Positions 2,448 through 63,325 of a stretch of 64,000 bases of DNA are shown here, piece after piece. The translations under genes and the position numbers were made by a program. Positions within the stretch are counted from its first letter, which is position 1, and each line of letters opens with the position of its first letter. The notes under the pieces are model-generated. The model did not search any database. It saw only the letters and a program-made list of their open reading frames with translations, and was not told the DNA's origin. Source of the DNA: Metallyticus violacea (lineage: Eukaryota; Arthropoda; Insecta; Mantodea; Metallyticidae); the NCBI GenBank assembly GCA_030762175.1, contig CM060831.1, positions 69,603,001-69,667,000 on the forward strand. The letters are read 5' to 3'.

Positions 2448-3640
2448 AGGGATTTTCACAGTGAAATATTGTATAATATGACAAATTATGATTATGAAAT
2501 CACTCAAATTTTACTTTCCACTTTGTTCCACTTACTTGCTGTCCAAAATGTACTCACTCTACAAGACAGCACTGTTAAATTCACAGTGGAATTAGAAAAT
2601 ATCAAGGTTCTTCCTTTCTTGGATATAAAAATTATAAAAATGACAATATACTGGAATTTGGCATTTTCAGAAAAAAATACGCACACACATAATTATATAA
2701 AAAATAATTGCTACAATCCAAAACAACATAAATTAACCATAATCAACAGCCTCACATTCAGATTAACAAACCTGCCAATAAGCAATACAGGATACAAATT
2801 GGAGAGTACCAAAAAACCATAGATATAGCACCAAAAAATGGCTACACAATAGATTTTGTCAGCAAGAAAATGGAGAAATTCAGAAAGAAAAAAACGAATA
2901 AAGGACATCGCCACACTAAAAGGCTACAAAGGATATCATGTATATAAAAAATTCACATTCTACCCATGGGCACACTAAAAATTCCAGAAGATTTTTAAAG
3001 AGGCAAGCATCATTTTGGCCCCAATAAATAAATTTAGTTTAAAAAAACCACTTAAACACCAACACAAAAGACAAAATTCCAACAGGAAAGCAATCAGGCA
3101 TTTACAAAATTGATTGCAAAGACTGTGACATGACATAGGCAAAACAAAAAGAAATATTACCATACGTTTTAAGGAACACATGAGAAATGTAAAATATAAA
3201 CACACAGAAAAATCAGCAGTGGCAGACTATTTTTGGCACAAAAAAAAAAAAAAAACCACAAATTCCAAAAGGAACCAAAACTACTAAAAGCTCTTCAAAA
3301 ACCCATAGAATTAACAGCATGGGAAAATATATTTATAAACTAAAACAAAGATTTTTGGTTAACGTTGATCTCCCAAACAACATTTACCTCATCAATAAGT
3401 TCGTTAAAGCCACAGAGTGACATCTTAATACCATACTGGGAAGCGGCCAGTGGGACCAAGCTGAAGATGGAGGTAAATGCCTTTGAAACGTGTCCAAGTA
3501 AGTGGAACAAAATTAGTGAAATTTGAGTGATTTTGTAATAATAATTTGTTATATTTATATTTAAAATTTCATTTTTAAAAATCCACATGAAAATGCTCAA
3601 TTTCTGCTTGGAAGACATTTTCTTATAAAATGTCTTTACA
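2448..3640 (+). mobile_element. Penelope-like element relic with inverted terminal repeats
   Basis: A 5'-truncated PLE. At 2469-2822 a frame carries the RT 'thumb' signature NIKVLPFLDIKI followed by HKLTIINSLTFRL. Frameshifted GIY-YIG endonuclease pieces follow (a TIGKTKRNI-like stretch, FKEHMRNVKY, EKSAVAD-FWHK). The first ~95 bases (2448-2545) are roughly the reverse complement of 3485-3580, so the element is bounded by inverted copies of its terminal repeat. A hammerhead-like core lies at 3461-3494. Frameshifts and stops make it inactive. Confidence 0.7.
3461..3494 (+). ncRNA. Hammerhead-ribozyme-like core in PLE terminal repeat
   Basis: CTGAAGA, then a stem GGAGG...CCTTT with loop, then GAAACG and GTCC. 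All invariant hammerhead positions are present (position 7 may be any base). Helix III is very short, as reported for hammerheads of Penelope-like elements. Cleavage is predicted after GTC at 3494. Helix I is not obvious locally. Confidence 0.5.
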
Positions 3641-4824
3641 TAACCTATAAAATTATTTTCTAGCTATCCAGCAAAATCGGTTATTTGGCACTGGCTTTGT
3701 CCCCTAGTGGCTAGAAACGAGAGCTTTCATTATTGTATACTGATTTAAAAATATGCCTTGACATGATTGGCAATAATTTGAATAATATATGCATCTAAGA
3801 CTTCATTTTTGTAATGCAAGTATCCAATTAAATTTTTTAGGCACATTGTTTTCTATGTCATATTCTAAATATAGATAGATAATTCCATAATAAGCAACTG
3901 TTAGTACAATATTTAGTATTCATCAAAAGCAAATACTGAGTTTTATATAATATTTTAGAAGTAGCACTGTCACTTTGCTGTGAGGTAATGATCGTAGTAA
4001 AATATCCTTGTCCCAGATTGCCAGTTTACTAGTCTATGACATAACAGGGCACTCTTAGATTAATGATGACAATTCAGTGAAACAAAATGGTGCAAGGTAT
4101 TTTTATCCATATCTCTCACTTTAGTTGACTAATATGTCAATGACTAGACTGCAAAGGTTTAACTCCTGTCATTTGTTTGTTTACTTAACTTGACATATAT
4201 TGTAAGTAAGAGAAAAAGATGCTAAAACCTTTAGTGTATATTCTTCCTTAATTTCTTGACCATAAATTTATCCTCTAGGTTGTGATTTGTCACTGTGCAC
4301 ATACCATGTAAATAACCAATAAATTTACTCTCTAATGGACAGTGGACATTACTATGGTTGAGCCATTTCCTTGTCTTCCACCAAGATATCTCAGGCTAAC
4401 CCAGGGGCCAGATATATAATTTATGATGGGCAAAGTGACATTGGACAGGCTTTCTCTAGGTAATCTGGTTTTCCTATTGCTGCCACCTCCACCACTATCA
4501 GCATCATCACCATCACTAACAACATTCTACATCTTCAGAAATTCCTCATTGTCTAGTAGTATCTTGAATACCCAAAACTTGGCAGTCTAGCATATCAGCA
4601 ACTTAATACATGTATCATCAAGCACAAGAAGGAATTGGTTAAATTAGTAAGGAGATATTTTTTTATGATACACTAAAACTGTTCAAAGCAGATCCCTAAG
4701 GGACTGAAATATTTTTTCAATGAAGAAGTTTGTACATTTAACAATTTACTAATTACTAATTTTATATTATAACTTTATGTCCTCCCTTTATGAGTGTATT
4801 TTGTTCAGGAGCACGGATAAAACA
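3641..4824. other. Intron 1, no recognisable element
   Basis: AT-rich intron with a short CAC/CAT-rich run near 4484-4515. I found no homology, terminal repeat or RNA gene. Confidence 0.45.
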
Positions 4825-5570
4825 GCCTCAAATAATGGCAGACAACAAATGTCTATATGAGCTTGGGAAAGCATTGCAATTGAAAGTGCTATCTAGATCT
4901 GCAAAATAAAATAGTTTATAACACTATAATAAGACCTATAGTAATATATGCCAGTTAGATTTTAGTGCTGACTAAAAGTAGTCAAAAGATATTAGCAATC
5001 TAGAAAAGAAAGATTCTGAAAACATATTAAATGTAAAAATTATACAGAGTTATATAAATTATTTGGAGAACCAATTATAATATATTTTATTAAGACAGGT
5101 AAATTAGGTTGGCTGGGACACACAGAGCATATGACAGATTGCAGATTATCTAAAAGGGCATTATGTGGACATCCTGAGGGAGCTAAAGACCTATACTCTT
5201 TTTTTTTTATTTGTTTTATTTAAGGACGCTCTTTATCATCTGAAGTCATCAGCATCCCATTCAATTCAGGGCAGGAAATGGCAGACAAATTTTGCTCAGA
5301 GGCCTCTTCTTTCAGGCTTAAGGTTCTTTATCATGCTGTAAAAGTACGACATGGGACCCACGGCTTTACTTCCCTTCCGAAGGAAGCCATACTTATGATT
5401 TTTACACCCAAAAAAAATCCATCGATCCTGACCGGGTTTGAACCCATGATCTTGGGTTTAGAAGGCAAAGTATGGTTACCACCATACTGGACTGACTAAC
5501 CTCCTCAGACTAAATGTGGAGGACAACTTCAGGATAGTTGGTGTCTGAAGATGGAGCATATAATAGAAAT
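4825..5570 (+). mobile_element. LINE C-terminal fragment split by a SINE
   Basis: Frameshifted translation of 4930-5200 resembles the region after the RT domain of insect LINEs (a VIYAS..LVLTKSSQKIL-like stretch, KRKILKTY, then GWLGHTEHMTDCRL). The reading resumes after the SINE at about 5500 with LNVEDNFRIVGV-like residues, typical of the same C-terminal region. The 5206-5499 SINE therefore inserted into this older LINE copy. Confidence 0.55.
5206..5499 (-). mobile_element. tRNA-derived SINE, family 1
   Basis: On the minus strand it starts with a tRNA-like head: an A-box-like TGGTGTAGTGG-type segment (one base altered here) and B box GGGTTCAAACCC (around 5440-5453). A conserved body follows (GTACGACATGGGACCCACGG on + at 5344-5363) and the tail is T-rich on +. 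Two further copies lie at 22814-23113 and 41690-41970. The apparent open frame through it is not a gene. Confidence 0.8.
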
Positions 5571-6136
5571 GAGGTTTTTTATTATTTGAGGCCCTTCATA
5601 GACAGTAGCACCAGTGATTAATGAATTTATTAATATGGCATGTAAAACCAATATTTTTATTTTAGTACTTATATTTTTTCTGAAAACAAAAAAAAATGTT
5701 ATATTTAAACTCATAGTTTGTTGAAAATGATGCCCTCAATGACGATACATTGCCAACATCTGCATAGGAAAGTCCTGTATTTCATCTGACATGGCAGTTC
5801 AGAAATGTTTCTTGACATTGAGAGATTCTAACACTCATACATTTTTAGCAAGTTTGTGAACAATTTCTCTGCCTGGTGTATGATTTCCAGAATGTTTTCT
5901 TATAACTTACCTTACTTCTTACCTTCTCAGCAAGAGTTGATTTTTGCATTGTGTTGCACATAAACTTGTTCTTCAGATTATATTAGGTAGCATAGCTAAT
6001 GGACAATTTACACATAATGAAAGCATGGAATAAGACACATGAATGTACAATCATTTTTGGACAAAGCTTCCCACAAACTAACTATAAGCTTTAACTGCAA
6101 ATATATTTTATGACTTGATAATGGACTTCTCCCAGT
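5571..6136. other. Intron 1, possible degraded transposase
   Basis: The minus strand of about 5700-5990 gives broken frames faintly like a Tc1/mariner C-terminus. This is too weak to assign. Nothing else is seen. Confidence 0.25.
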
Positions 6137-6424
6137 ATGCAGCCATGTTCTGCTGGCCCATAAATCAAATAATCTTAACTTCTCTAGAAGGAACTAACCA
6201 CAGGACTGGATAAGATGACAGACTGTGGTTTTGAAGATAGTTATCAGTGAGACTCAAACTCAGTAACAATTATCAATTTTATGCAGATATGTTCTGCTGG
6301 CCCATAAATCAAATAATCTTAACTTATTCTAGAAGGAACTAACCACAGGACTGGATAAGATGACAGACTGTGGTTTTGAAGATAGTAATCAGTGAGACTC
6401 AAACTCAGTAACAATTATCAACTT
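6137..6424. repeat. Direct tandem duplication, two ~144-bp units
   Basis: The unit beginning ATGCAG..TGTTCTGCTGGCC at 6137 is repeated at 6281 with only a few differences, and both copies end in AACTCAGTAACAATTATCAA. The near identity suggests a recent segmental duplication inside intron 1. Confidence 0.9.
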
Positions 6425-9416: not shown

Positions 9417-10261
9417 AGTTGACCAAAAAAGTTCTGTCACTTTTTTTGCAATGCTCAAATTTCAAGTTTAGGCAACAGTTAAAGGCAACAAATACCATTA
9501 AGATAAGAATGAATTTTTGTAGAGCATTGTGTTGTTAAGCTGGTAGGTTGAATTTTTCATAGTGTTTGCAAGAAGTGTGCTTAAATGAGCTTGTATGCTC
9601 TATAATTTTAAACTATGGATCAATGCAACTGCAGTAGCACAAAAAATATGCCAGATATTTAATGCTGATGCTAGGAATGACCATAGATATGCAAGGATGG
9701 CTCAGAAAGTTCCAAGAAGGCAATTAAACTCTCAAAAGGAACCATTTATAGGAAGACGAATAATAATGGATAACAAGGTTCTCTTAATGACTGTTGATAC
9801 AAACAAAGCCAGAACTTGTGAGTATGTGGCACAAAAATTCAACACCAATGCGGAAACCATACATTCCATCTCCATCTGCTAAGAAAAAGATAAAAGCTTG
9901 GTTGCTGGGTTCCACACAATTTGACAATGACTCAGAAAGTGACTTATGTTTGTAATGTCATATCAGCAAAGAATCCATTTCTTGATGGGTGCCGACATGC
10001 AATAATAATTAAAACATATCTTTTAAAAAAGAAATTATTTTAAAAAATACATATTAACCTCACAAAAATTTGCATAAATGAATCATTTTTTACATTTAGA
10101 GAAAAATTTTAAAATAACAAACAGGACTTACTATGGGCAGTCCTTTATCGCCTTTTTTGGCAAACCTCTACATGAGCAGATTTGAAATACTTACTTCTGC
10201 CTTTCCACACTTTTTTAAGATTTGGTACAGATATGTAGATATAGTAAATAAAAATCTGATT

Positions 10262-10409: not shown

Positions 10410-11331
10410 TAAAAATCTGATTGATGATGCCTTAAAACTGCTGTATGTACAAGACAGAAACATTTCTTTTACATGTGAAATAGAAAATAATAACATTTTA
10501 CCATTTTTAGATATTAAAATTATGAAGAACCATTAGAATCTGAGCTTTGGGATACATAGAAAAAATACACAGATAATCATATCAAGGCAGATGGTTTTAA
10601 CCCTTAACACACAAACATGCAGTTTTCAATAAGTTGACATATCCTTTGGTTAATTTACCAATCAGTAAAGAAGAGTTTAAAAAAGAATACAGTAAAATAG
10701 AAGAATTGACAATTTTAAATGGCTTTAATAAAGACCTGGTACATAAAAAGGTGAAAAGATTTAAAAGGAAAAAACTTATCAGAGGTACCATCACATTATC
10801 AGCAGATATAAAAAAACCAATTTTTAAAAAATTTACATATCCAAAGCAATGAAAAAATTTCAAAATACTTTTTAAAGGTTTCAATATAAAATTAGCACCC
10901 ATCAACAGATTTAATTTAGGAAACATCTTGAAAGATAAAATAAAGACCCTACAAGAGAAAAAAGCAGGTATTTACAGAATAACATGTGCAGATTGTGAAA
11001 AGATCTATATTGGAAAAACAAAGAGGAATATAGGCACACGTTTAGAAGAGCATTTCAGGAACATAAAATATAAACAGATAATTTAGCTGTGGCATATAAT
11101 TTTTGGACAAATAACAACAAGTTTGTAAAGAAGGTGGATTTATTAAAAGAGACTCAGGGACATATAGAACTGGATACTTGGGAAAAAAATTTACATTCCT
11201 AAATGAGTTCGATTAATGAACTTTGATATTCCAAAGGTAGGAAACACCAACTTTAAGTACATTAAAACATCACCAGGGTGTCGCTTCAACTCTACAGAGC
11301 CGTTGGATTCTCCAATCAGTTGTACCCTTGG

Positions 11332-11367
11332 CCAAAGATGAAGACGAAGGTCTTCGAAACTGGTTCC
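11332..11367 (+). ncRNA. Hammerhead-like core (degraded) at PLE 3' end
   Basis: Reads CAAAGATG, then a perfect stem AAGAC-GAAG-GTCTT, then CGAAAC and TGGTTC. The CTGANGA box has decayed to CAAAGAT, so activity is unlikely, but the arrangement and position after the GIY-YIG tail match the other copies. Confidence 0.4.
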
Positions 11368-11904
11368 AAATATCATACAAGTAAGTGAAGCAATAAGAGT
11401 GTTTAGTACGACATATATCACATGAATTTATTCATATGGAATAATAAGTTGATCTACTGTGACATTCAAAATATCATCATTGCTGGTTGGCAGCCCATGA
11501 ACCTATCCCCAAACACTGAAACCATCATATACCAAAAGAAGGTTATGCTCTGTGTTTGGTGAGCTGTATTTTGTTCATTGTGAACTGCTGCCAGCTAACC
11601 AAACAATCAATGCCATTGTATATTTTAACCACTATGAAAAGCTGAAAACTAGGGAGTCTGCACTCATGAATTGCAAAGTTGATATTCTAATGCACAATAA
11701 TGCAAAACCACATACAGCTAAGGTGGCTTATGAAACCATTATTTGTCTTGGTTGGGATACTGTAGTGCAATGGTGTCCAATTACTGTTAACCTGGAGGCC
11801 ATAAAAATATTTACTATCAGATGGCAGGCTGCATCCTAAACTAATTAATCATGTTCTGCAATTGTATAAAATATAGTGAACTTTTGTAACAGTGGTGTCA
11901 AATA

Positions 11905-12216
11905 TTAACATTTTTAAAAAATTGAGTCAAAATTGTAACATACACACCACTAAAATTCAATAAAATGGAATACTAGTTTCGGGAGCCATCGCTCCTACCA
12001 TCAGTTCCTGGTCGACTGCCGGTCTCGTTGTTTGTGGTAGGTTGATTCATCTCTGGTGGAGGTTTAATGAACTTTTGTATTAGTAAATCACTTGGCGGGA
12101 TTTCGAAATTAAAAACTTTCTCTTTATTCTTCCAAATATACTAGTCTTCCATTTTATTGAATTTTAGTGGTGTGTATGTTACAATTTCGACTCAATTTTT
12201 TAAAAATGTTAATGTT
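11905..12216 (-). mobile_element. Short PLE-derived unit between ~65-bp inverted repeats
   Basis: Inverted arms (about 11905-11975 and 12146-12216) share the core CACCACTAAAATTCAATAAA. Between them the minus strand encodes only the C-terminal tail of a PLE protein (WKNKEKVFNFEIPPSDLL-like) followed by a hammerhead-like motif at 11971-12004. Sequences outside the arms repeat imperfectly (TGTTCTGCAAT at 11853 and 12211), a possible target duplication. There is no RT or endonuclease core, so it could only be non-autonomous. Confidence 0.7.
11971..12004 (-). ncRNA. Hammerhead-like motif
   Basis: Minus strand: CTGATGG, stem GGAG-loop-CTCC, CGAAAC, then TAGTA. A9 of the core is G, which would be expected to weaken or abolish cleavage. 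The rest matches the family seen at PLE ends in this window. Confidence 0.4.
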
Positions 12217-14905: not shown

Positions 14906-14913
14906 ATATAAAT

Positions 14914-16439: not shown

Positions 16440-16640
16440 CCAAACTCACATTCTTGTGACTGCACTTGTTTGTATTTAAAACATGTTTCCCAGATCATAT
16501 TCTTTATTCTCAGCTAATTGTTGACTCTTAGCTTAGGATACAGACGATGGTCTGCAAAACATATTTTAAAAACAAACAAGTAAAGCCACAAGACTGTGTA
16601 GTTTGACTCAGTCATATAATAATTTAATTAAGGAATTAAG
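16440..16640 (+). repeat. PLE terminal-repeat foldback with degraded hammerhead motif
   Basis: CACTTGTTTGTATTTAAAAC near 16464 is the inverse of TTTTAAAAACAAACAAGTAAAG near 16565. A motif like the one at 62428 (GGATACAGACGATGGTCTGC then AAAACAT) precedes the right arm, and the unit ends in GTGTAGTTTGACTCAGTC, a diverged copy of the arm at 62500. Confidence 0.55.
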
Positions 16641-17514: not shown

Positions 17515-18550
17515 AAATTATAATTTTGAACAGATAATCCAATTTCACTAATTTTGTTCCACTTACTTGGACATGTTTCAAAGGCTGTTGCCTTCATCTG
17601 CAGCATGGTTCCACTGTTAGTTTCCCAACAAGGTATTCCTTTATAAATTTGGTAATGAAGTTATTGTTGTTTAAAAGATCAATATAAACTAAATTTACTT
17701 TAATCAAAAATGTTAAATTTACTTTGATTCTGTTTATGAATATATTCTCCCATACTGTTAATTATATGGAGTGCTTTTAAGAGTTTTGGTTCATTTTGGA
17801 TTTTTTTTGTATGCCTGAAATGGTATGTTATTGCTTATTCATCCATATGTTTATATTTCTCATATGTTCCTTAAACCATAGGGAAATGTTTCTTTTTGTT
17901 TTACCTATATATTTCATATTGCAATCTTTGTAACTGAATTTGTAAATGCTTGATTGTTTTCTGGTGGATTTTGTCTTTTATGTTGGTTTTTAGGTGGTTT
18001 TTAAAATTCTATTTGTTTATTGGAGCCAAAATAATGTTGACAACTTTAAATATTTTCTGGAATTTTTATGTGCCGATGAATGGAATGTGACTTTTTTGTG
18101 CATATGATCTCTTTTGTAACCTTTTAGTGTCATGATGTCCTTTTTTTAATTGCTGTATTTTCTTATTGATCAGTCTATTGTGTAGCCATTTTTCTGTGCT
18201 ATCTATGATCTTTTGATTTTGATTTGTATTTTGTCTTGCTTATTGGTAGATTTGTTATGAGAATTTGAGGCTGTTGATTATTGGAAAATGTATGATATTT
18301 TTTTGGTTTTGGCTGTTTAAATGTATGGGTATCTTTTCTCAATATGCCACATTCTTGTATATTGCCATTTTTTATGATTTTTATATCCAGGAAGGGAAGA
18401 ACATTAATATTTTCTATTTACAGATTGTGAAGTTAACAGTGTTGTCATGTAAGTTGAGTAATTTTATTGCATTCTTTCCATTTTTCATTCACTATTGCAA
18501 GAACATCATCTACATAATAGTACGAAAACTGAAGACAGTCTGCTAGGGAA
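17515..18550 (-). mobile_element. Penelope-like element relic (RT YVDD and GIY-YIG remnants)
   Basis: Minus strand reads, in order: the RT catalytic core FSYYYVDDVLAIVNEK (about 18495-18540), ENINVLPFLDIKI, the linker with LITNLPISKQDK, a FHSSAHKNSRKYLK-like segment, and a GIY-YIG piece (YIGKTKRNIS, FKEHMRNI). The 3' terminal repeat has a hammerhead-like motif at 17570-17604. Stops and frameshifts are frequent. Confidence 0.75.
17570..17604 (-). ncRNA. Hammerhead-ribozyme-like core
   Basis: Minus strand: CTGCAGA, stem AAGGC-AACA-GCCTT, GAAAC, ATGTCC. The core differs from consensus at A6 (C here), so it is probably inactive. Flanks (AAGTAAGTGGAACAAAATTAG) match the copies at 3461 and 34184. 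Confidence 0.45.
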
Positions 18551-18960: not shown

Positions 18961-19369
18961 AAAACTACACTACTTGAACTTGTTTAGAAGGAATTTTTCT
19001 TCACCATGCATGAATCCATGCTCATAATGAAAGCAACCACCTTTGAAACATGACCAAATAAGTAGGTGAAAATGAGTGATATCTAATCAAATTATAATTT
19101 AATATTACATTTCACAGTGAACATTTCCACAAACAAAAAAGTCCAACAATCTTGAGTTGTTCTGTTAAAACCAATTAAAAATGATTAAGCAGAGTTTCAT
19201 TAAGTTTTTCTCATACCAATATTAATGGCTTTCAAATCTCCATTATAGATAAATTAACATTTAATGTTAGTTCATTATATGCATGTCCAGATGGCCTTCT
19301 TCAGAAGCATAATTATTGCCTGATGTTGTATATTTTCTAATAAATATGTACGTGTGTGCGGTACAATTA

Positions 19370-26890: not shown

Positions 26891-26892
26891 CT

Positions 26893-27171
26893 ATTAATTT
26901 ATCAGAACATGTTTCAATAGCATTCACTCTCTTCTTCACCTGGGGATCAACTAATGCTGGCAGGTGTCGATATGACCTCTGGTGATTGCAATATAGTAAA
27001 GAAGGAAGTCCATTGGTGGGATGTGAAAATTTGTAACACATCCCACCAATGGACTTCCTATTTAACTGTATATTGAAACCCCCAGAGGTTACATCTTCTC
27101 CTGCCAGTATTAGTCGGTCCCCAGCTGAAGATGAAAGCAAATGCTCTTGAAACATGTTCTGGTGAATTAAT
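26893..27171. repeat. Long inverted repeat with a hammerhead-like motif
   Basis: Arms 26893-27025 and 27037-27171 pair over about 130 bp around an 11-base loop (core GGAAGTCCATTGGTGGGATG). The right arm carries CTGAAGATG...GAAACATGTTC (27125-27159) and the left arm a decayed inverse copy near 26909-26945. The layout matches the inverted terminal repeats of PLEs elsewhere in the window. Confidence 0.85.
27125..27159 (+). ncRNA. Hammerhead-ribozyme-like core
   Basis: CTGAAGA, stem AAAGC-AAAT-GCTCT (one mismatch), TGAAAC, ATGTTC. The core bases are intact. The cleavage triplet would be GTT, allowed but slower than GTC. Confidence 0.45.
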
Positions 27172-29826: not shown

Positions 29827-29862
<36 letters not shown>

Positions 29863-31722: not shown

Positions 31723-32295
31723 CCCTTGAGCCAAAGAGCTCAAGAAGAAATCTCTTCTAGTTAAAATATTTAAAAAAAAATTATGGTTCATTCCCCATCC
31801 CTTGAGCCAAATAGCTCAAGAAGAAATCTCTTCTAGTTAAAATATTTAAAAAATTCTTTATGGCTTCATTCCCATGGGATAAAAACAGTTATGTTAAAAT
31901 ATTTAAAATATCTGAAACATTCTTTATGGTTTCATTCTCAAGAATTAAAAAAACCAGGATATGTTTCATGATGGTTTCATTCTCAAGAATTAAAAAAACC
32001 AGGACATGTTTCGTGAGACATTTGTTCACATGGTCAACTGATGGATCACTCATTGAAGTTGAAAATGTAGGTATCTGCGAGGATTCGGTGGTCTAGGGAT
32101 GAACCTAAACAGGGTGCTGTCTACTTCAGGAACATCAAAATTTATGAGTTTATGCTCATTATAAAAATATTTTCCCATAAGCTAAGTTCCTTGGGTTGTT
32201 GAACAACTTTATGCCTTTTTCTATTTCATGATGTTACTTCCAGAAATATGCTGCCAGATGGGAGTTTTTTAAATATTTTAACTGGAAGAAATGTT
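31723..32295 (-). repeat. PLE terminal-repeat foldback with internal duplications and hammerhead-like motif
   Basis: TTCTAGTTAAAATATTTAAAAA (31766, 31830) is the inverse of TTTTTTAAATATTTTAACTGGAA (32265). The segment from CTCATCCCTTGAGCC is duplicated (31723 and 31795) and so is ATGGTTTCATTCTCAAGAAT (31927 and 31969). The minus strand at 32003-32040 reads TTGACCATGTGAAC...CTCACGAAACATGTCC, a decayed hammerhead-like motif. Confidence 0.6.
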
Positions 32296-34142: not shown

Positions 34143-34277
34143 GGAAATCACTCACATTTCACTAGTTTTGTTCCACTTACTTGGACATGTTTCCAAGGCT
34201 GTTGCCTTCATCATCAGCATAGTTCCACTGGAAATCCAAATAAGTGGAACAAAACTAGTGAAATTTGAGTTATTTCC
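34143..34277 (-). repeat. PLE terminal-repeat foldback with intact hammerhead core
   Basis: Arms 34143-34184 and 34236-34277 (core TTCACTAGTTTTGTTCCACTT) are complementary over about 42 bases with two or three mismatches and enclose the motif at 34184-34217. Arm sequence is shared with PLE ends at 3495, 17530 and 18890. Confidence 0.85.
34184..34217 (-). ncRNA. Hammerhead-ribozyme-like core, best preserved copy
   Basis: Minus strand: CTGATGA, stem AAGGC-AACA-GCCTT with one or two extra bases at its base, GAAAC, AT, GTC, then CAAG. All conserved core bases (CUGAUGA, GAA, UH) are exact. Helix III is only about 2 bp, as in published PLE hammerheads, which work better as dimers. Helix I would have to use the distal inverted arm, leaving a bulge of about 18 bases. 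Confidence 0.6.
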
Positions 34278-35549
34278 TCATAAATAATTTGTTATATTAT
34301 ATTATATTTCACTGTGAAAATCCTTGCTATCTAAATCTATATTAACATTGTTCTTTACTTTCTTGAATGAGATGACGTACTGACTGTTAATTGTGAATGG
34401 TAATGTAGATTTTAGCACTTTCTGTGCCTATTCTTTAGGTTCTTGATTTTCCAGTCTTCATTGAGTACTTTGAGGGTGCCATATTCTTTTAAGATGTCAT
34501 AATATTCTTTAGGAGACAAGATGCTCTACCCCCTATTTTTTTTCTTTTTTTTCTTTTCCTGTATGCTTTCTCAATCTACCAAAGACTTGGTCTGGAGCCA
34601 TGTAGCTATGTCCATGGAATGTAAAGAAATGAAATTAACTCTTTTCCAAGAATGCTATAAGTAAGTCAAAAAGAAAGTCCAGCAAAGCCGATGCAACTTG
34701 TTTGCATCTTCTTGAAGATTCTGTTTTCAGCCAGGTATAGAAAACAATATTTTTCTTTTTTTAATCATTAGCATGAAACATGAATCATAGATTATATAAC
34801 CATACTTACCCAGCATAGAAAATTTTACTAACTAACAGTTTTGGAAGTGACTGGTTTTGCTGCATATTGAAGGCAATCTTAATGGGACCTGGATTTTCTC
34901 CTTTCATTATTCTATAAAACTGCTTTGCATGAAGTTTATGCAATATGTGACTTAGTTTTTAATTCATTTTTCTTCTCCAAACATTTCTCTCATTTTATTT
35001 TCATGAAACTAGCCTTACAAGTGGAGCATGTATCAGTGTGGGGAGTCTAAAATATTATATTTTGATAAAAAGCCTAGTTTGAAATGTGGCACCCTTCTTG
35101 TCTCTAGATCTTCTGCCACCTGAACATTCGTTTACCTTTACCACTTTTACCGTTATCGGAATCACTGTCCATTCTGATTTAACTTGAAATATTTCTTCTT
35201 ACAAACAAGACTGCATCGTTGATAACTTCTCTAAAAGTAACCTGGGAATTTGTTACTACAATGAAGTCTGGTTGTGGGATTATGAGCAGCCAATCAAAGA
35301 AGAAATATTGTTACAATAATGAGTAACATTGCATAGACTACACATACCTCTATTATGCCAACTGTTTGGTATGAAATGAAAGTAAAGAAGAATTTATTGC
35401 ATTTATGGATTTATCCTTTAACTCTCAGATTGCATATATCAATTTTTGCTAAAACCCTATGAGTTTGTCTGCTGCTATATATAATATTTGTCAACTTTTG
35501 CTAAAATTTGATTCACAGCACAACATGAAAGGACAAAATTATGCCATTA
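34278..35549. other. Intron 3, no recognisable element
   Basis: T-rich run near 34540-34558. No gene or element recognised. Confidence 0.4.
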
Positions 35550-36869: not shown

Positions 36870-36965
36870 TATCCTACATTAATGTGTTCAAGTTTTAACA
36901 CTAACTCCGCTTACTTTTTAAAACTTAGGACTAGTGTTAGAACTTGAACACATTAATGTAGGATA
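36870..36965. repeat. Short foldback repeat
   Basis: 34-bp arms (36870-36903, 36932-36965; core CCTACATTAATGTGTTCAAG) with one mismatch around a 28-base loop. The following GATATATTACCACTTCATTG resembles the PLE-end flank at 45421 and 42470 (inverted), so it may be a deleted PLE terminus. Confidence 0.8.
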
Positions 36966-37771
36966 TATTACCACTTCATTGCCTACAGCATTATAAATAC
37001 AATTTTACTTAACTATAAGTTGTTCATGGAACCATCGTGCAGATGTTGAATCAAGTAAGGCATGGCTGGGTCCTGGTTAAATCTTTACTGGTTTACATGA
37101 TGTCTTTGATTAAACACTAATACAACTGAATCGTGAATAGTTGATTGTGACTGTTTGTTGCCATTACCTGTGATTATATCACTAATGAAATGCTTTCATA
37201 GGGTATGTAATTTTGCAATTGAAATATAAAATATAAGCAGCTTCAAAAAATTGTGTAATAAGCAAGTTCAGAAAATGCTGAGTCTTGCAACTTTAAAATA
37301 GGTTATGCTTTCATAAATTAGTATAAAATCTTCTCTTAATCCTCAAAATTGTATTCATGAACTGCTGGTTTAATGAACATTGTGCCTATGGCTCTTCTGC
37401 TGAATCATAAAAACATTCTTTAAAATTGGTAGTTAATTGAAAGGGGAAATGCTAAAAGGGATTCTCTCATATATGCATAAAAATAGATGACATAATATTC
37501 CTCAATACATTTTTGGTTAATTGTTATGTTCAAATAACTTTCAGAGTGATATTTTCTTTAGTGCATCTACTGATTTTTAGTTCAGTAATAAAGAAATAGA
37601 GCTATTCTTATTCAGAAATTCATTTGAAAAATTTTGTACAGCACTTAGTGTGAGCATGTTATCATAGCTATGAAAATTAGTGCTTTCTGATCAAAAGCAA
37701 ATCAGTTGTATTTAATAAGGCATTTATCAGAGACATCACTTTGACTGTTATTTTTTTGTGTTCCATCACAG
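36966..37771. other. Intron 3, 3' end; nothing recognised
   Basis: Ends with TTTTTTTGTGTTCCATCACAG at 37751-37771, a good polypyrimidine tract and acceptor. Confidence 0.5.
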
Positions 37772-42362: not shown

Positions 42363-42487
42363 GTTAACATTTCATTTGCTTTCGGCAAGATAATAATTTT
42401 CAGTGAATGTTGTAAAACTAGTAGCAAGCTCCATATTTAACTATTGTACTTATGAAGCTGTTGACAATGGAGTGGTAATATATTCTA

Positions 42488-43136
42488 AACTTAGGTATTC
42501 ATTTTTTACACTAAACTGCACTTACTTATATAAAAGTAAGACATGTTTCGGGAGAATCTCTCCCATCTTCAGTTGGTCACTGAACCACCATTACTCGAAA
42601 TGATGGCTAGACAATGGTTGTTCCTATGGTGGCCTCTGTTGGTTGATGTAGGAAGTTGCTGAGTTCATCCATAGGAGGAAACTCAAAATTCATTAGGTTT
42701 TCTCTATTTTTTAATATGAATTTTTTTTCCCAAGTGGATAACTTGAATGGGTTGTGAAGATATTTCAGCAGTTTAATTCCTGGTTTTATTTCATGATTTT
42801 TGGTAGCAGTAGCAGCTCACTTTTGGACCAAAAATCATGAAATGAAATCCGGAATTAAACTACTGAAACATCTTCACAAACCATTGGAGTTTTCCACTTG
42901 GGAAAAAAATTTCATATTAAAAAATAGAGAAAACCTAATGAATTTCAAGTTTCCTCCTATGGATGAACTCAGCAACTTCCTACTTCAACCAACAGAAGCC
43001 ACCACAGGAACATTGGTTGTCTAGCCATTGTTTCAAGCAACAGTGGTTCAGTGAGCAACTGAAGAAGATGGGAGAGATTCTCCTGAATGCATCTTACTTT
43101 TATGTAAGTAAGTGCAAAAAATGAATATCTAAGTTT
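42488..43136. mobile_element. Long inverted repeat made of two opposed PLE 3' ends (fills intron 5)
   Basis: Arms 42488-42804 and 42827-43136 are about 315 bp each around a 22-base loop. Each arm contains a PLE C-terminal coding tail (clearest on the right, 42806-43021: HFWTKNHEMKSGIKLLKHLH, then STWEKNFILKNRENLMNF) and a hammerhead motif (minus 42540-42572 intact; plus 43058-43095 altered). It starts 126 bases after exon 42183-42362 and makes up most of an intron of 1.14 kb, so the pre-mRNA should form a very long hairpin between two coding exons. Confidence 0.92.
42540..42572 (-). ncRNA. Hammerhead-ribozyme-like core, intact
   Basis: Minus strand: CTGAAGA, one base, perfect 6-bp stem GGGAGA/TCTCCC, GAAAC, AT, GTC. 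Every conserved core base is present. It is followed by TTACTTTTATATAAGTAAG, itself a small hairpin. It is antisense to RB1CC1, so it would not cut the host transcript. Confidence 0.55.
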
Positions 43137-43503
43137 AAGCTTCATATTATTTGTCTCAGTTCCCATAGTCAAGAACTAAAATGACTGAAGGAGTTTGTAT
43201 CTGAAATGTCTGTTCCTTAACTGGACTAATTTTTATCTCAACACTAACAAAGCATGTATGAATTTTCCAAAGTTGAGATCATCTGAAAAGTTTTTATTAA
43301 GTTGAATGCTATTAAAGAGAGAAAAATCCATAAAAATGTAGTTTATTGATGTCATTAATTGTCATGTCATTAATTGTCCATCATACAAGAATGATAGCTC
43401 TGATGGTTGCTAACCCATGCACTGAGTAGATAATAGAAAAAATTTAGTAGCACTGTATTATCTTATTTGGTTTAACATATGTACCCTAATGTTTGATTTT
43501 CAG
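43137..43503. other. Intron 5, 3' end
   Basis: No element seen. Ends at acceptor TTTGATTTTCAG. Confidence 0.6.
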
Positions 43504-44379: not shown

Positions 44380-44405
44380 TATGGTTTCACTTAAATGAGA
44401 TTTAA

Positions 44406-44439
44406 GTATGTTTCATGGAACTATTATCCACATCATCAG
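44406..44439 (-). ncRNA. Hammerhead-like core
   Basis: Minus strand: CTGATGA, stem TGGA-loop-TTCCA, GAAAC, ATACTT. The catalytic boxes are exact but the cleavage triplet GTC has become TAC. Confidence 0.45.
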
Positions 44440-45336
44440 CGGTTAAACAACTGTTGTATCATTCATAGGAGCGGGGTAGGTAGGTATCCAAGTTGACTCA
44501 GGTGGTGTAGTGATAAACTTAAATAAAGTGCTGTCTGCTTCTGGGATGTCAAAATTCATAAGGTTATGCTCAGGTTTTTTTTTATATATATAAATTCTTC
44601 CTAAGTTCTTTTAGTGGTTGAACAGTTTTTAATAACTTGGTGCCTTTTTCTATTTCATGGTTTTCATTCCAAAATTGTGCTACCACAGCTGATTTATCTA
44701 TTTGTTTGTAATGGATGTTTCTCCAATGTTCCTTCTACCTAATGCCTATATTTCTCTGTCTTCCCTATGTAGATTTTTTCATAATTCTTACAATTAATAC
44801 GGTAAATACCAGATTTTTTTTCTATTTGAGTCTGGAATCTATTTTATTTAATTTCAGGTTTTGAGGTACTAAGACAATGTTGTACTGCTTGAAAATTTTT
44901 TGAAATTTCTTATTGGCTGATGGATGGTAAATGAACTTTTTAAATGTTTTTTCCCCTGATAAATCACTTAAAGCTGTTATTTGTTTAATTCTTTCTGGTT
45001 TCTGGAATCTTTTGATTTTTTGCTTAATCATCTGTTTGTTGAACCCATTGGATTTAGCTGCTTCTTTTATAGATATTCATTCTTGTATTCTTCTTTGCAC
45101 ATTGGTATATTTATTAGTCTGTATATCATGCTGTTGAGTGCTGCTTCCTTATGTGGTCTTGGATGAAACCATGGGCTTTGATATAGTTATCTGTATTTGT
45201 GTCCTTTATATAACTGCCAAATTCAAGTTTATTATTACATTTTATTATCTTCAGATCCAAAAATGGTAACATATCTCTCCCCTAAACTTAGGTATTCATT
45301 TTTTACACTAAACTCCATTTACTTACAAAAAATAAG

Positions 45337-45368
45337 ATGAGTTTCGGGAGAATCTCTCCCATCTTCAG
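45337..45368 (-). ncRNA. Hammerhead-like core
   Basis: Minus strand: CTGAAGA, perfect stem GGGAGA/TCTCCC, GAAAC, TCATC. Same subfamily as the 42540 and 63232 copies. The flank AAACTTAGGTATTCATTTTT (45285) is shared with 42487. Confidence 0.5.
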
Positions 45369-45516
45369 TTGCTCACTGAGCAGCCATTACTCGAAACCAT
45401 GAATGCACACCTAAGTTTAGGATATATTACCACTCCATTATCAATAGCTTTGTAAGCACAATATTTATCTCTCTTTCTGTTTTGACAGTGAACTTAGCAA
45501 GTTAATACATTGAGTA

Positions 45517-48600: not shown

Positions 48601-49252
48601 TTACTTGGAATTGGAGTACCAAAAAATCATGGATATAGCATAGAAAAATGGCTAAACAACAGATCTGGTCAAGAAAAAGATAGAAAAATTCATAAAACAA
48701 AAAAAAAACAAAAAAAGAAATTGCCACATTGAAAGGTTACAAAGGAGAGCAGATATATAAGAAATTTTCATTCCATCCATGGGCACACCAAAAATGTCAA
48801 AAGATTTTTAAAGATGCCATATTATTTTGGCTTCAGTAATAAATGCAGTTTGAAAAACCTCCTAAATACCAAAACAAAAGCCGAAATTCTGCCAGGAAAA
48901 TCAGGCATTTACGAGATCAATTGCAAAGACTGCAATAATAAATATATAGGTAACACAAAAAGAAACATTACCATACGGTTTAAGAAACACATGAGAAATG
49001 TAAAATATACAGAAAAATCAACAGTAGCATACCATTTCTGGCAAAAAAAAACATGAGTTCCAAAATGAACCAAAACTCTTAAAAGCTCTTCAAAAACCCA
49101 TAGAATTATCGGTGTGGGAAAATATATTCTTGATTGAAAACAAAGAAAATTTAATTGATATTATTGTATGATTTAGTTGAGCTACACACTCTTAATGCTT
49201 CACTTGTCATAACCAGTTTCGAGAACATTTCGTTCTCATTGTCAGCCAGGCT
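48600..49252 (+). mobile_element. Penelope-like element 3' half (GIY-YIG and terminal repeat)
   Basis: The frame 48814-49056 is the cleanest GIY-YIG here: SGIYEINCKDCNNKYIGNTK, RNITIRFKKHMRNVKY, EKSTVAYHFWQKK. It is preceded by frameshifted linker and followed by KALQKPIELSVWENIF. The end is a PLE terminal arm (TAGTTGAGCTACACACTCTT) and, on the minus strand at 49213-49245, a stem-loop with GAGAAC/GTTCTC followed by GAAAC (core box CTGACAA, not consensus). Confidence 0.8.
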
Positions 49253-49559: not shown

Positions 49560-51565
49560 TAAAAAAAATTTTAAAAAAATGCTCTCTGTAATGGTCACAA
49601 TTTTTGTTTTTTCTAAATGAAACTTAGCACATAACCATTAATTAACAAATACTTCCAGTTCGTTAATAGCAAAATTGAACCTTAGATGTTGTCCTAAAGC
49701 AGAAGTTTTAAAAAAATTTGAAAAATTGCTCTTAGTGGCCGCAATTTTTCTTTATCTCGAAGAAACTCAGTAAAAAAACTTAAAATAAATTGATAAAGAA
49801 GTTGTGAAAAGTATGGCAATTGTGCCACTCTGAGTCTGGGTATATCTGAAGAATTTTGGGGGGTTAAGCAAAATTTTAAAATCGTTCTACCAGCTGCAGT
49901 TTTAAATGTTTTTAAAGGAAACTCAGTATATGTCATTGGCCATTGGGTGGGGAGGGGGTTACATAAAATTTAAAAATTGTTCTAGCACACCAGTAAGTTT
50001 TTTCACAACAGAACTTGGCATGGACCATTTAAATAAAATAAGAAAAATAGTTTTTGAAAATCATCAGATTATTGGAAATGGGGGATTACTGGAATAGGAT
50101 TTGGGTTTAAACCAAAATTTAAAAATCTCTCTAATGGTCGCCATTTGAATTTTTTTAAAGGAAACTCAATATATGTAATTGAAATAAAATAAGAAAAATC
50201 AATGAAAATAGACTTTAGTAGAGGGGGCTTTACACAAAATTTAAAAATTGCTCTAGCAGCATAACTGTTTGTTTTGCAATGAAAATCTATATATTTAAGT
50301 AAAATAAGAAGAAAAAAAAATAGTTCCTGAAAATCAGTGAAATCTGACTATTAGGAGGGAGGGTGTTTGCCTGCACCCCAAAATTTAAAATTTGCTCTAG
50401 TGGTATTAATATGTTTTTATGTAACGAAACACTGTATATACCATTTAAATTGAATAAGAAAAATAGTTTCTGAAAATTAGGGAAATGGAGCAATTAGAAG
50501 AGGGGTGTAACCTGATTTAAAAACTGCTCTAGCAGCACCAATAATTGTTTTTTCACAACAAAATTCAGCATATACCATTTAAATCAAATAAGAAAAATAG
50601 TTCAATTAAAAATGAATGTAGGAGTCCACACAGTGAAACTATCATAAATCTTGTTGAATTAAAAGTAAAAGTTTTAAAATCATGTCAACATATTAAAACT
50701 CTGTTGGCATTTCACATTAAAACTTTTTTTATTAAAAAGTAAGTTGGGACTAGTTTTGTGAGTCACTTGCTCACATTGTCAACCAATTGTCAATTGAGCA
50801 AATGACTCACGAAACTAGTCCCAATCTACTTTTTAATAAAAAAAAAATTTTAATGTGAAACGTCAAGAGAGTTTTAATATGTTGACATGATTTTAGAAGT
50901 TTTACTTTTAACTCAACAAGAACAATGATTTTTAAAAATTATCAGATTATTGGTGGGTTACCTGAAAAATGAGTGGGGGTTAAAATGAAAAAATTGCTCT
51001 AACGACTGCAATTTTAAATTTTTAAAAGAAACTCAATATATGCCATTGAAATAAAATAAGAAAAGTGGTTTCTGGAAATCAATGAAAGAATTGGGCTATT
51101 GTATTAGCAGGGTGGTTTACCCAAAATTTAAAAATCTCTCTAACGGTGTTAATATTTGTTTTCCAATGAAACTCTGTATATACCATTTAAATAAAACAAG
51201 AAGAATAAAAATAGTTCCTGAAAATCAGTGAAATCAGACTATTAGGAGGGGGTTTGCCTGTGCCCCAAAATTTAAAAATAACTCTAGTAACATTAATATA
51301 TCTTTTTTGCAACAAAACTCTGTATGTGCCATTTAAATAGAATAAGAAAGATGAAACTCAGAGAAAGCAGGCTTTTAGATGGGGTGGGGAGTGTTACCTC
51401 AAAACCATAATTTAAAAATTGCTTTATCAGCACCAATATTTGTATCTTCGCAACAAAATTCATTATATTCATATAAATAAATAAGAAAAATAGTTTCTAA
51501 AATTAGGGAAATTGAACTATTAGGAGTAAAGGTATACTTGTAAACCAAAATTTTAAAATTGCCTT
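49560..51565. repeat. Degenerate tandem array, ~140-bp unit, about 13 copies
   Basis: The block AAAATTTAAAAATTGCTCTAG recurs near 49570, 49714, 49870, 49966, 50114, 50235, 50380, 50516, 50985, 51123, 51267, 51408 and 51546. Spacing is mostly 136-148 bases. Each unit continues with AAACTC.GTATATACCATT and AATAAGAAAAATAGTT and TGAAAATCAGTGAAAT and a GGAGGGG run. Units differ by 10-30 percent by eye. There is no open frame. The array is broken by the foldback at 50650-50920. Confidence 0.88.
50650..50920. mobile_element. Foldback element inside the tandem array
   Basis: Arms 50650-50778 and 50791-50920 are about 130 bp each (core GTTGGGACTAGTTTTGTGAG and its inverse) around a 12-base loop. Each arm holds a decayed hammerhead-like string (GAGCAAATGACTCAC then GAAACTAGTCCC on + at about 50795-50821). 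It has no coding tail, unlike the unit at 42488. Confidence 0.88.

Positions 51566-52225: not shown

Positions 52226-52267
<42 letters not shown>
52223..52267. repeat. (AAT)n microsatellite
   Basis: About 15 AAT units. Confidence 0.95.
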
Positions 52268-56146: not shown

Positions 56147-56429
56147 GCCATGGGTGGCCGAGGTCATTAAGGTACATACTCGTGAGCGGGAGGTCAAATC
56201 CCATCAGGACCGTCCTTTCTGACTGAGGTTTTTCCAGGTTTTCCTCAGTCCTCATAATAGCAAATGCCGGGAAGGTACCCTTAACTTAGGCTTGAACATT
56301 TCCCTCCTTAAAAAAAATCCTTTCCCAATATATTGTTTCATCTCTTGTATCATCAGTGTCGCCTCCTGTGATGCCTCAGTATTAAAAATGAGCTTTAAAC
56401 ACTAAACACAAAAAAAAATAATAATAATC
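56147..56429 (+). mobile_element. tRNA-derived SINE, family 2, full length with TSD
   Basis: Only plus-oriented family 2 copy. Head GGGTGGCCGAGGTCATTAAGG has a Leu/Ser tRNA A box; the B box is slightly decayed (GAGGTCAAATCCC). Body to about 56400, then A-rich tail ending AATAATAATAATC. Flanked by ACAATGTAAATACT (56133-56146) and ACAATGTAAATGCT (56430-56443). Confidence 0.92.
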
Positions 56430-60244: not shown

Positions 60245-61325
60245 ACTACAATTTTCTTCTGGGCTGTTGTGCGTGGTCTGCTGGAGATGAGAATTCCAGA
60301 CGTTTCATCTGCAACACTTGGACACACCATGTACTGCAAGCCCACTCATAATGATCGCTATTTAAACAAGAACTTCAATCATTATTCAAGGCAGAAACAT
60401 GCCATGATTAAAACTCTTGTAAATCATGCTTCATGCATTTGCAAGCCTCGGTTACTGCCACAAGGACTGCACCACCTAGAACTAGCATTACAGTCCAATG
60501 GTTATTCAATTCAGGAAGTAAAGAGCTTGCCGCCCAGCAAAACCAAAACCTGCAGCCTAAAATCAGACCAATCTCATGTAAAGGGCAAAGTTTTTCTACC
60601 TAATTTCGAAAACATCACAGACTATATTGAACATATACTGCAACATCACAGGGTCAAGATAGTCTTTAAGCCTACTAAGCAGCTAAGCAATCTACTATGC
60701 TCTGTCAAAGATCCTCGGGAGCCTTTGTCATCTGCCGGTGTTTACTATATTCCCTTACAGTTTGGTTTACATCAGTACTCCAGAATGCAGCATTAGAACC
60801 AGACACAAAGAACACAAAAAGAACTGTCATCTGGGTCAAATAGATAAGTCCTCGGTAGCAGAACACTCCATCAAAGTGGAGGGGGAACATATCAAGTTTC
60901 AGGACACTAGCATCCTTTCATCTATTATATGCTACCATGCAAGACTTTAACGAGAAGCTATTGAAATTTACAAATATCCCAACAATTTCAACAAGAAAGA
61001 AGAAGCTCTCAAATTAAACAGCTTCTGGTATCCAGCAATTGGAAACAAAGCACAACACACAACACATGAAAACATAGCAAGCCTATCATAGGAGAGGCGA
61101 GGCTCCTCCCACCAGCCGACTGACTGCCTGTCCCAGACCAACCAGCAGAGAGCAGTATAAATAGAGCAACTCAGACAGCCAATACTTCAGACGCAGTCAT
61201 ACCTTCTCTGAGGAGATTTCATCCAATCCACTGAAGATGTCTGCCATTGTTGCGGACGAAGCATCTGGAATTCTTAACTCCAGATTATCATGCCACAGCA
61301 GCCCAGAAGAAAATTGTAGTTACAA
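60245..61325 (+). mobile_element. Penelope/Poseidon-type PLE relic
   Basis: Distinct from the other PLEs here. The frame 60269-60796 reads GHTMYCKPTHNDRYLNKNFN, KHAMIKTLVNHASCIC, LPQGLHHLELALQSNGYS, then SSAGVYYIP (GIY-YIG start). One frameshift later come RTRHKEHKKNCHLGQIDKSS, VAEHSI and YPNNFNKKEEALKLNSFW. A TATA-like TATAAATAG at 61157 and a hammerhead-like motif at 61231-61264 follow; an inverse GAAACGTC lies at 60290-60310, so the ends are inverted relative to each other. Confidence 0.82.
61231..61264 (+). ncRNA. Hammerhead-like motif of the Poseidon-type PLE
   Basis: CTGAAGA, TGTC...GGAC stem, GAAGC, ATC. A15.1 has become G, so it is probably inactive. The matching inverse segment at 60290-60310 keeps GAAACGTC. 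Confidence 0.4.
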
Positions 61326-61984
61326 ACATAAGTTTTACTTTCAAAAATAAAAAATAAAAATTCAAGTATAAGAGGATTCAAACTTAGATAGTATTACTAA
61401 ACATGCACATTTGTTCACTCAGCTATCAAATCATATGGTTTGAATAAATTATTTTCTGTTTATGGCATAACTTAAATATGAACTAAAAGTGACATTGTAA
61501 AATCGACATCAACAAATGGTTCCGTAGTTCTGGATCAGTCTTGGCTTCTGGCTGTTGCTCATTCTATCTTAGGGTGAACTTAAATAAATGCATAGAACAA
61601 GAAAGAAGCATTATGACTAAGACTTTCTTTAATTCCACAACCTTTTAATGTAATTTAGTGTCCTATGAACTTTTGGAATGAAAAAATTACATTGATGATG
61701 TGAAGATAAATTAAGAAAAGGTGTTTTCTGTCATAACTTTCATATAAATATAAAGTTAATTACTTCATAAAACACAGATTTTTCAAATACTTGTTCAAAG
61801 TAGATGATACCAAATATTGCATTCTATATTTGTGGGCAAAACGCATTTGATATATGCCTTGCCTTTGATATATGCAATTCAAATGGCTACAGAGTTGTAA
61901 ACTATTAAATCTGCTAACATTTTTATACAGACAAGTGGCATAGGCAGATGCATTATGTCATGATTTAATTGAAGTCTAATGAAA
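61326..61984. other. Intron 9, unassigned
   Basis: AT-rich; nothing recognised. Confidence 0.4.
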
Positions 61985-62530
61985 AATGTATAATTAAGAT
62001 TATTGCATGAATGAGTTGAACTACACACTCTTATTGGCTCCACTTGTTTATATTTAGAACATTTGCATCCTCAGCTGTCAACTGCTAGATAAATCATCAT
62101 ATTCCTTTGGGGATGCATACTTTGCTCTGGTAGAGGTATGTTTTAATCCCAGGAAATATCGAATTTCATTACTGTCAGCAGTGGTATCTCATTTCTGACA
62201 GAGAACCATGACATAATGAAAAAAGCAAAATTATTGAAGTCAGCACAGGGACCCTTGGAGCTAGCAACATGGGAGAAAATCTGCATTTATAAATACAGAA
62301 ACAGATTGATGAACTTCAACACTTCCAGTGAAGAAAACATGAACTTTGAGTTCATCACACCTCCATACCAGAGCATGATATGGATCCCCAAAGGAACGCT
62401 GTGAATTACCCGGCAATCTAAACTCAGCTGAGGATGTGGATGATGGTCTGCAAAACATGTTATAAATGTAAACAAGTAAATGGAGCCTATAAGAGTATGT
62501 AGTTCGACTGTGTCATACAATAATCTTAAT
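61985..62530 (+). mobile_element. Short PLE-derived unit: coding tail and hammerhead-like motif between inverted arms
   Basis: Outer arms (TTAAGATTATTGCATGAATG at 61994 and the inverse near 62500-62535, sharing GTTGAACTACACACTC-type sequence) enclose only a PLE C-terminal tail (62216-62404: IMKKAKLLKSAQGPLELATW, EKICIYKYRNRLMNF) and CTGAGGATGTGGATGATGG... AAAACATGTT at 62428-62462. There is no RT or GIY-YIG core. Same architecture as 11905-12216 and each arm of 42488-43136. Confidence 0.75.
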
Positions 62531-62749
62531 TATATGATTTGCTTCGCTCTACAAATTCCAATTAGCACTTCAAGACAAAAATATATTTTTGTACTATTAG
62601 ATACCTCATTTAATAAGACTAAAATAATTCCATTATATGTACATATTTTTTAAATATGAATTTTTATGCTGTAATAATAGTGTGAAAGATAACAGTATAC
62701 TTTTGCATTTTGAAATCCAGGCCTTTGAAAATCAGTATTTCCTTTCCTT

Positions 62750-62960
62750 TCTTTTTTTTTTTCTTTTTTTTTTTTTTTTCTGCATAATGTACTTTAAAAT
62801 ATGGGTTCTAGGCCTAAGTCTAGGTTCTCCTGGACATCATTAATGAGGACTGAGGAAAACCTGGATAAACCTTAGTTAGAGAGGACTGTCCTAGTGGGAA
62901 TTGAACCGCAGATCTACCAGTGACAAATCCATGCCTGGTAATCTTGACCACCCATGTAGG
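62750..62960 (-). mobile_element. SINE family 2, internally truncated
   Basis: T-rich tail at 62752-62779 and body from 62808 (CCTAAGTCTAGG, ATTAATGAGGACTGAGGAAA), B box inverse GGGAATTGAACC at 62897, head to about 62957. The middle of the element is deleted. Confidence 0.8.
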
Positions 62961-63139
62961 TATAGCCATTTAGGGATCTACAGATATAAAATATTGTGCA
63001 GTGTCTGTTGCCTTTTTTAGATTTCAATCCATCATCATGAGAAGAAGGCCATTTAAGGGTTGTGCTATTTTAAAGGAAACATTAATTACCTGATTCATAT
63101 ACCATATGAACAGAAAATATTTAATTTCCATTAGAAAGT
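62961..63139. other. Intron 9, unassigned
   Basis: Nothing recognised. Confidence 0.4.
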
Positions 63140-63325
63140 AGTAAATGTAGTATATATATTGTACTGTACGAAGCTGTACACAATGGAGTTGGTCCGTCCA
63201 TCGTTTTGAGTAACGGTTATTCAGTGAGCAACTGAAGATGGGAGAGATTCTCCTGAAATATGTCTTACTTTTGTGTAAGTGAGTGGAGTTTAGTATAAAA
63301 ATGAATACCTAAGTTTAGGTTAATA
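63140..63325 (+). mobile_element. Solo PLE terminal repeat with hammerhead-like motif
   Basis: Matches the right end of 42488-43136 and the inverse of 45285-45440: GAGCAACTGAAGATGGGAGA (63226), then TCTTACTTTTGTGTAAGTGA and GAATACCTAAGTTTAGG. No coding tail is attached. Confidence 0.75.
63232..63264 (+). ncRNA. Hammerhead-like core in sense orientation
   Basis: CTGAAGA, stem GGGAGA/TCTCCT, GAAAT, ATGTC. The core is intact apart from a wobble closing pair. It is on the RB1CC1 sense strand 470 bases upstream of the Claw exon, so it would be part of the pre-mRNA. Confidence 0.5.

Follow-up and report, generated by a model that had tools for sequence, protein, structure and literature searches.

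A 64,000-nucleotide stretch of the genome of the mantodean Metallyticus violacea (assembly GCA_030762175.1, contig CM060831.1, positions 69,603,001 to 69,667,000 of the forward strand; hereafter the window) carries about twenty copies, mostly decayed, of a recurrent conserved fold, CUGANG-AUG-(6-bp stem II)-GAAAC-NN-GUH. These are very probably minimal type I hammerhead ribozymes located in the pseudo-long terminal repeats (pseudo-LTRs) or 3' ends of about ten decayed, endonuclease-bearing subfamilies of Penelope-like elements. The set is a further example of the hammerheads already known from Penelope elements, and it adds several divergent subfamilies with minimal hammerheads, none of which is reported in the window by Rfam models.

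A conserved hammerhead-like fold

An earlier note, drawn up from the letters alone, had listed fifteen sites with the pattern CTGANGA, short stem-loop, GAAAC, two nucleotides and GTC. The motif family that it described is real. The spaced core CTGANGA-N4..30-GAAAC matches ten times in the window, compared to 0.82 expected, and none of 100 shuffles reaches ten; six of these matches are motif copies (3461, 27125, 34189, 42545, 44410 and 45341) and four are not (24740, 27953, 35675 and 56335). The core of the listed pattern was borne out, but the pattern itself was too short: read across the sites, the shared layout is CUGANGA, U (usually UG), a 6-bp stem, a short loop, GAAAC, 2 nt and GUH; of the 16 aligned copies, 15 have U after CUGANGA and 13 have UG. 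The full listed pattern is exact at 3461, 34184 and 42540 only, and the remaining sites differ by at least one base; the 27125 copy ends in GTT (GUU) in place of GTC. The copies are given below, grouped by hand into about ten subfamilies from sequence comparisons, with expectation values (E) from three covariance models, R1, R2 and R3.

3455..3500 (+): A1, family A; core intact, poor helix I, predicted cut after 3494; R3 (blind) E 0.001
17564..17609 (-): A2, family A; A6 changed to C; R3 (blind) E 9.2e-04
34178..34223 (-): A3, family A; core intact, G-G at the base of stem II; R3 (blind) E 8.1e-05
19015..19060 (+): decayed inverted copy of family A; R1 E 0.0095, R2 E 0.0015; outside every training set, absent from the R3 list
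42534..42578 (-): B1, family B; core intact; R3 (blind) E 1.9e-06
45330..45374 (-): B2, family B; nine core bases intact, G16.2 altered; R3 (blind) E 1.1e-04
63226..63270 (+): B3, family B; core intact, position 15.2 is U; R3 (blind) E 2.8e-05
43053..43099 (+): family B, inverted partner of 42534-42578; 3-nt insertion adjoining the core; R1 E 0.0053, R2 E 5e-05; outside every training set, absent from the R3 list
44399..44445 (-): C1, family C; nine core bases intact, GUC site gone; missed by R3
2283..2379 (+): family C, near 2307; decayed core; identified through descent, absent from all model lists
27119..27164 (+): D1, family D; core intact, helix I CCAG/CUGG; R3 (blind) E 9.6e-07
26900..26945 (-): D2, family D, inverted partner; C3 changed to G; R3 (blind) E 9.6e-04
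11326..11371 (+): family E; helix I UUGG/CCAA, perfect 6-bp stem II, U4 and G5 altered; R2 E 0.001
49205..49251 (-): family F; G8 altered, 3' side probably deleted; R2 E 0.24
62422..62467 (+): G1, family G; G12 changed to A; R2 E 6.9e-04
16474..16519 (-): G3, family G; helix I UUAG/UUAA, G8 altered; R2 E 2.2 (weak)
16526..16571 (+): G4, family G, inverted partner of 16474-16519; in no training set; R1 E 2.7e-07, R2 E 0.088, R3 E 5.9e-06
31997..32043 (-): H1, family H; helix I UCAG/CUGG plus one A-U, core decayed; R2 E 4.7e-06
50742..50788 (-): family H2 copy within a palindrome; helix I UUGG/CCAA; missed by R2
11965..12010 (-): family I; helix I GGAA/UUCC, A9 changed to G; R2 E 0.0016

The training set of R1 includes the 13 supported sites of the earlier note, R2 was built from families A to D and R3 from the other families; all E-values are rough by the search tool's own statement. 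Thirteen of the fifteen listed sites gave R1 E <= 2.1e-06, all 13 being in its training set. The copy near 2307 was kept by descent only (69% identity to 44406 over 99 columns), and the site at 61231 found no support: 61225-61271(+) gave E 0.084 with R1 and 0.7 with R3, has no GTC-like site by eye and no upstream Penelope tail match, and is likely a chance match that we did not count. In the cross-test, 12 of 16 copies were recovered by a model blind to them. R3 recovered eight of nine unseen copies at E <= 0.001, missing 44406, and R2 recovered four of seven at E < 0.01 (49213 scored 0.24, 16480 scored 2.2 and 50742 was unlisted). The best match outside the family had E 0.16 (R2) or 0.7 (R3), and R1 gave two doubtful ones, 0.057 and 0.084. 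The copies at 26906(-), 16526(+), 43053(+) and 19015(+) are additional to the note's list and, less surely, so are 16480(-) and 50742(-). Two further candidates were considered doubtful and left uncounted, 18971-19014(-) (E 0.057, 0.34 and 1.1 with R1, R2 and R3) and 23111-23149(+) (R2 E 0.16).

Structure was analyzed in an alignment of 16 copies from ten subfamilies with hand-set blocks, in which seven rows had one base added or dropped and a one-base edit of the H1 row favours stem II. In the type I structure 81.3% of the cells pair; shuffled alignments give 64.4 +/- 1.9, and slid registers do not exceed 45.7%. The covariation of stems between subfamilies that the note had reported is confirmed, with a score of 0.602 against 0.280 +/- 0.031 in shuffles, none of 500 reaching 0.602. 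Stem II is paired in 90.6% of cells and changes on both sides in five of its six pairs.

Helix I, which had not been obvious in the first inspection, is present as four pairs adjoining the core: CCAG/CUGG (27125), UUGG/CCAA (11332 and 50742), UCAG/CUGG (32003), GGAA/UUCC (11971) and UUAG/UUAA (16480). The 3' flanks were shuffled among 10 families for all 54 picks of one copy per family; helix I formed 26-30.5 of 40 pairs compared to 18-20 by shuffling, with p values of 0.00025-0.0055 that are somewhat optimistic if families are related. With look-alike families dropped, p was 0.0044 without H1 and H2 and 0.015 without D and E. The predicted helix III comprises A15.1-U16.1 and C15.2-G16.2 around 2 nt; its cells are 90.6% paired and nearly invariant, hence without covariation signal. 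As its inner dinucleotide is AU, UA, UG or GU in 15 of 17 rows (G2 being uncertain and B2 reading UC, by eye), AC-NN-GU is in these rows self-complementary if wobble is allowed, which suits a double hammerhead joined via helix III.

A dispersed repeat with GAGGACTGAGGAAA (22253-22509, 29842-30116, 41561-41680, 56148-56427 and 62805-62936; copies 74-87% identical) imitates the hammerhead core in loose pattern scans.

Penelope-like ends and the start codon within the core

The motifs lie at the ends of Penelope-like elements. The element ending in the 11332 motif carries an endonuclease fragment:

10853..11083 (+): GIY-YIG endonuclease fragment; Pfam PF01541 E 8.1e-08, above cut-off

A second, weak PF01541 match is found at 17831-17977(-) (E 0.0071, below cut-off). 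With a Penelope C-terminal protein profile seeded from the four tails of C1, B1, G1 and E, a tail at i-E < 0.01 was detected in the 600 nt upstream of the motif for 10 of 21 copies (C2, A1, E, I, H1, B1, B4i, C1, F and G1), four of them the seeds and six not. The association with Penelope coding tails that the note had seen therefore stands for these ten copies, the others being without a profile match. At 44406 only 3 nt separate the core from the stop codon of the frame upstream, so that stop, ribozyme and start codon are packed together.

Alignment columns 13-15 read ATG in 13 of 16 copies; this start codon overlaps the core, in most copies beginning at A9, which accounts for the U after CUGANGA. 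The short peptides encoded by A, D and E are alike (MKATALETC, MKANALETC and MKTKVFETG), and their similarity makes it possible that the short frames are under some coding constraint, their common ET deriving from the GAAAC core read in frame. The peptides of B, C, F and G are unlike these, and H1 and H2m stop after one codon. The sequence AAGTAAGTG follows the predicted cut by about 1 to 13 nt, exact in A1, A2, A3, B1 and E of the 16 copies and, as judged by eye, slightly altered in B2, B3 and G1, in surroundings that differ between copies:

3496-3504 (+): AAGTAAGTG
42519-42527 (-): AAGTAAGTG
11379-11387 (+): AAGTAAGTG

It resembles a 5' splice site; we do not propose a spliced first exon, as the phase of the preceding frame differs between families in a hand count.

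Two reviews describe Penelope hammerheads as type I and minimal, with a helix III of at most 2 bp or lacking, in pseudo-LTRs (PMC7761336, PMC6466107), in agreement with the note's mention of very short helix III, and also report for Penelope elements a double hammerhead joined via helix III. As the reviews present them, the small dimer-cleaving Penelope hammerheads (Lunse, Weinberg and Breaker 2017; Cervera and de la Pena 2014) are like the window copies in type, minimal size, short helix III and pseudo-LTR location. The U or UG that the window copies carry after CUGANGA may set them apart from the published small variants. In the Anolis carolinensis Penelope/Poseidon element PAc the frame also starts inside the ribozyme, with C3 and G8 before the start codon (PMC11167929), and the cut lies 26 bp downstream of the start; likewise, the predicted cut of B1 follows nucleotide 27 when the A of the start codon is taken as 1. 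PAc is one element, whereas the window holds several divergent subfamilies, and the PAc ribozyme cleaves in vitro only with its protein, whereas the window copies are known from sequence. The Adineta vaga Penelope (PMC3846280) shares with the window a GIY-YIG domain, a pseudo-LTR with the first codons, head-to-head inverted pseudo-LTRs and palindromic junctions. Its optional tail of 31 bp compares with about 30 bp in family A, where homology between tails runs either to about +55 to +58, counted from the cut site, or to about +86 and beyond. Unlike those of Adineta vaga, the inverted arms in the window are mostly 5'-truncated fragments.

Eight of nine listed palindromes consist of Penelope 3' ends facing outwards, the ninth being 40417-40470:

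10259-10369, 14907-15035, 16416-16630, 26856-27208, 34116-34304, 36870-36965, 42486-43137 and 50641-50929: head-to-head palindromes of Penelope 3' ends
42486..43137 (no strand): palindrome of two family B 3' ends, head-to-head; 84.65% over 671 columns

Rfam microRNA-family matches (E < 0.01, below curated scores) fall in five of them (10259-10369, 14907-15035, 26856-27208, 42486-43137 and 50641-50929), and Penelope-end palindromes are thus a possible source of false calls of plant or animal microRNA families. The stretch 49861-51562 consists of diverged direct repeats that overlap one another and are about 65-85% alike.

Predicted working and tail arms near the predicted cut

Cleavage, the use of dimers and a role in the life cycle of the elements are what we infer from the layout. 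Each motif would have a helix I of about 4 bp flanking the core, a stem II of 6 bp with a short loop and a helix III of two pairs. Where motifs follow one another in a transcript, in tandem or by read-through, the mostly self-complementary AC-NN-GU could join two of them; cleavage behind GUH would then release a unit RNA that begins with the nucleotide next to the cut. So short a helix III should leave monomers weak, in line with the predicted folds. Strong activity of most copies on their own is accordingly disfavoured by the folding models.

Three tail arms start close to the predicted cut:

2453..2538 (-): tail of the 3461 element in inverted orientation; the base with which it begins (2538) corresponds to the one following the predicted cut
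34235..34320 (+): tail of the 34184 element in inverted orientation; begins 2 nt ahead of the predicted cut, or right at it should the two additional matching bases be due to chance
36910..36996 (+): family B tail lacking a ribozyme; begins at the predicted cut or one base earlier

Among 12 tail-only pieces (2453, 34235, 18867, 36870, 36910, 12140, 14893, 14973, 10252, 10321, 45402 and 41495), five start within 2 nt of the predicted cut, these three being clear and 18867 and 36870 fuzzy on inspection; the count is small and post hoc, having been made after the pattern was seen, and leaves out 31879 (a tandem duplication) and the broken 61969-62080 copy. Other tails start at -6 (12140), at +11 to +26 depending on the query used (10252 and 10321), and at +37 and +49; those of 14893 and 14973 start at +6 to +13 by query used, not by the cut site of their own family. 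Since the sequence following the predicted cut is not the same in families A and B, a common ribozyme site is the simplest shared factor for the arm starts, and the three arms are a hint of cleavage in vivo.

We tentatively propose, as a possible rather than a favoured course of events, that the inverted copies record priming of both target-cut ends on element RNA, the short arm ending at the hammerhead cut. If this were general, the ribozyme would set the 5' end of the template in vivo; its role for these elements was called a mystery in a 2020 review. A transcription start at the cut site would give the same arm starts. The Adineta vaga account (PMC3846280) explains palindromes by self-priming, the passages at hand containing no discussion of hammerheads. 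The PAc protein cuts and extends both strands (PMC11167929), and a protein of this type would also yield head-to-head palindromes. The start positions of short inverted arms would offer a cheap genome-wide readout of the role of the ribozyme for the elements.

Weighing the hammerhead reading

Several observations weigh against the hammerhead reading or qualify it. The nine core bases are intact in seven of 16 aligned copies and in the consensus, and the other nine copies have lost core bases; six of the seven intact copies also retain U16.1 and H17 (alignment read by eye). The classical hammerhead consensus has no extra U between A9 and stem II. Helix I is paired in 66.3% of cells, with changes on both sides in four of five pairs; it is absent or broken in C1 (44406), F (49213) and G1 (62428), its third pair is mismatched in families A and B, and the families of 3461 and 42540 have a weak helix I. 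For two of the five covariation measures, the pairs with both-side changes and the further pair types, 266 and 60 of 500 shuffles did as well. The note had proposed folding copies as monomers and dimers, and eight were folded each way. The minimum free energy (MFE) fold of the monomers contains stem II in five, helix I in three and both together in E and I only, while a joined helix III formed among the dimers only in I (six pairs) and A3 (four pairs). A significant Penelope tail at 49037-49174(+) has no motif downstream. Pfam gave no reverse transcriptase match in the Penelope-like fragments of the window, and a YVDD-containing fragment at 18448-18570(-) and LPFLD fragments, which presumably resemble Penelope reverse transcriptase, were not confirmed by it. 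Protein searches with the Penelope-like frames returned no homologue, and none among solved structures. The covariance-model search suggested in the note gave a divided answer: the curated Rfam hammerhead models had no match over the window at gathering score or E <= 10, nor with laxer filters on 121-base stretches around 42540 and 11332, whereas the motif-specific models recovered unseen copies. The curated models probably need longer helices, so that their negative result is compatible with the minimal kind.

Part of this evidence would equally suit a conserved piece retained for the Penelope frame start and for signals of reverse-transcription initiation, with a hammerhead resemblance that is inherited and inactive, an explanation we consider rather unlikely. 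Most predicted folds are not hammerheads, core bases are lost in nine of 16 aligned copies, and the A, D and E peptides are alike, though their ET comes from GAAAC. In addition, core mutants of the PAc ribozyme still insert in vitro, and RNA-seq showed no ends at its cut site (PMC11167929). However, lost core bases are expected of dead copies anyway, and retention for the frame start does not account for stem II and helix I staying paired while both sides change. With pairing kept and the peptides of B, C, F and G dissimilar, or in H1 and H2m a single codon long, the constraint looks like one on RNA; moreover, the predicted cut lies no more than 2 nt from the start of three tail arms, which come from two families.

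Non-autonomous retrozymes, that is, small tandem repeats with type I hammerheads that form circular RNA, hold most classical animal type I hammerheads (PMC7229834). They are a very improbable source of the present copies, as no tandem array of 150 to 400 bp period is listed in the window and 10 of 21 copies follow Penelope coding. Chance matches in AT-rich repeats are hardly credible: four of the ten core-pattern matches are indeed not copies, and six viral-contig stretches that match the longer pattern gave no model match at E <= 10, but for the main set chance is refuted by cross-validation, covariation and genomic position. A permuted hammerhead (PMC10085705), suggested by the seeming lack of helix I in the first inspection, was rejected, as the block order C-G-S is that of type I and helix I is in place.

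The window also contains other mobile elements. An uninterrupted 882-aa frame of a non-long-terminal-repeat retrotransposon with endonuclease and reverse transcriptase domains (52897-55545(-); Pfam RVT_1 E 1.6e-41) is perhaps a recent insertion, and mariner-type transposase fragments lie at 19470-19853(+) and 9589-9879(+) (Pfam Transposase_1 E 1.2e-08; HTH_48 E 0.00048, below cut-off).

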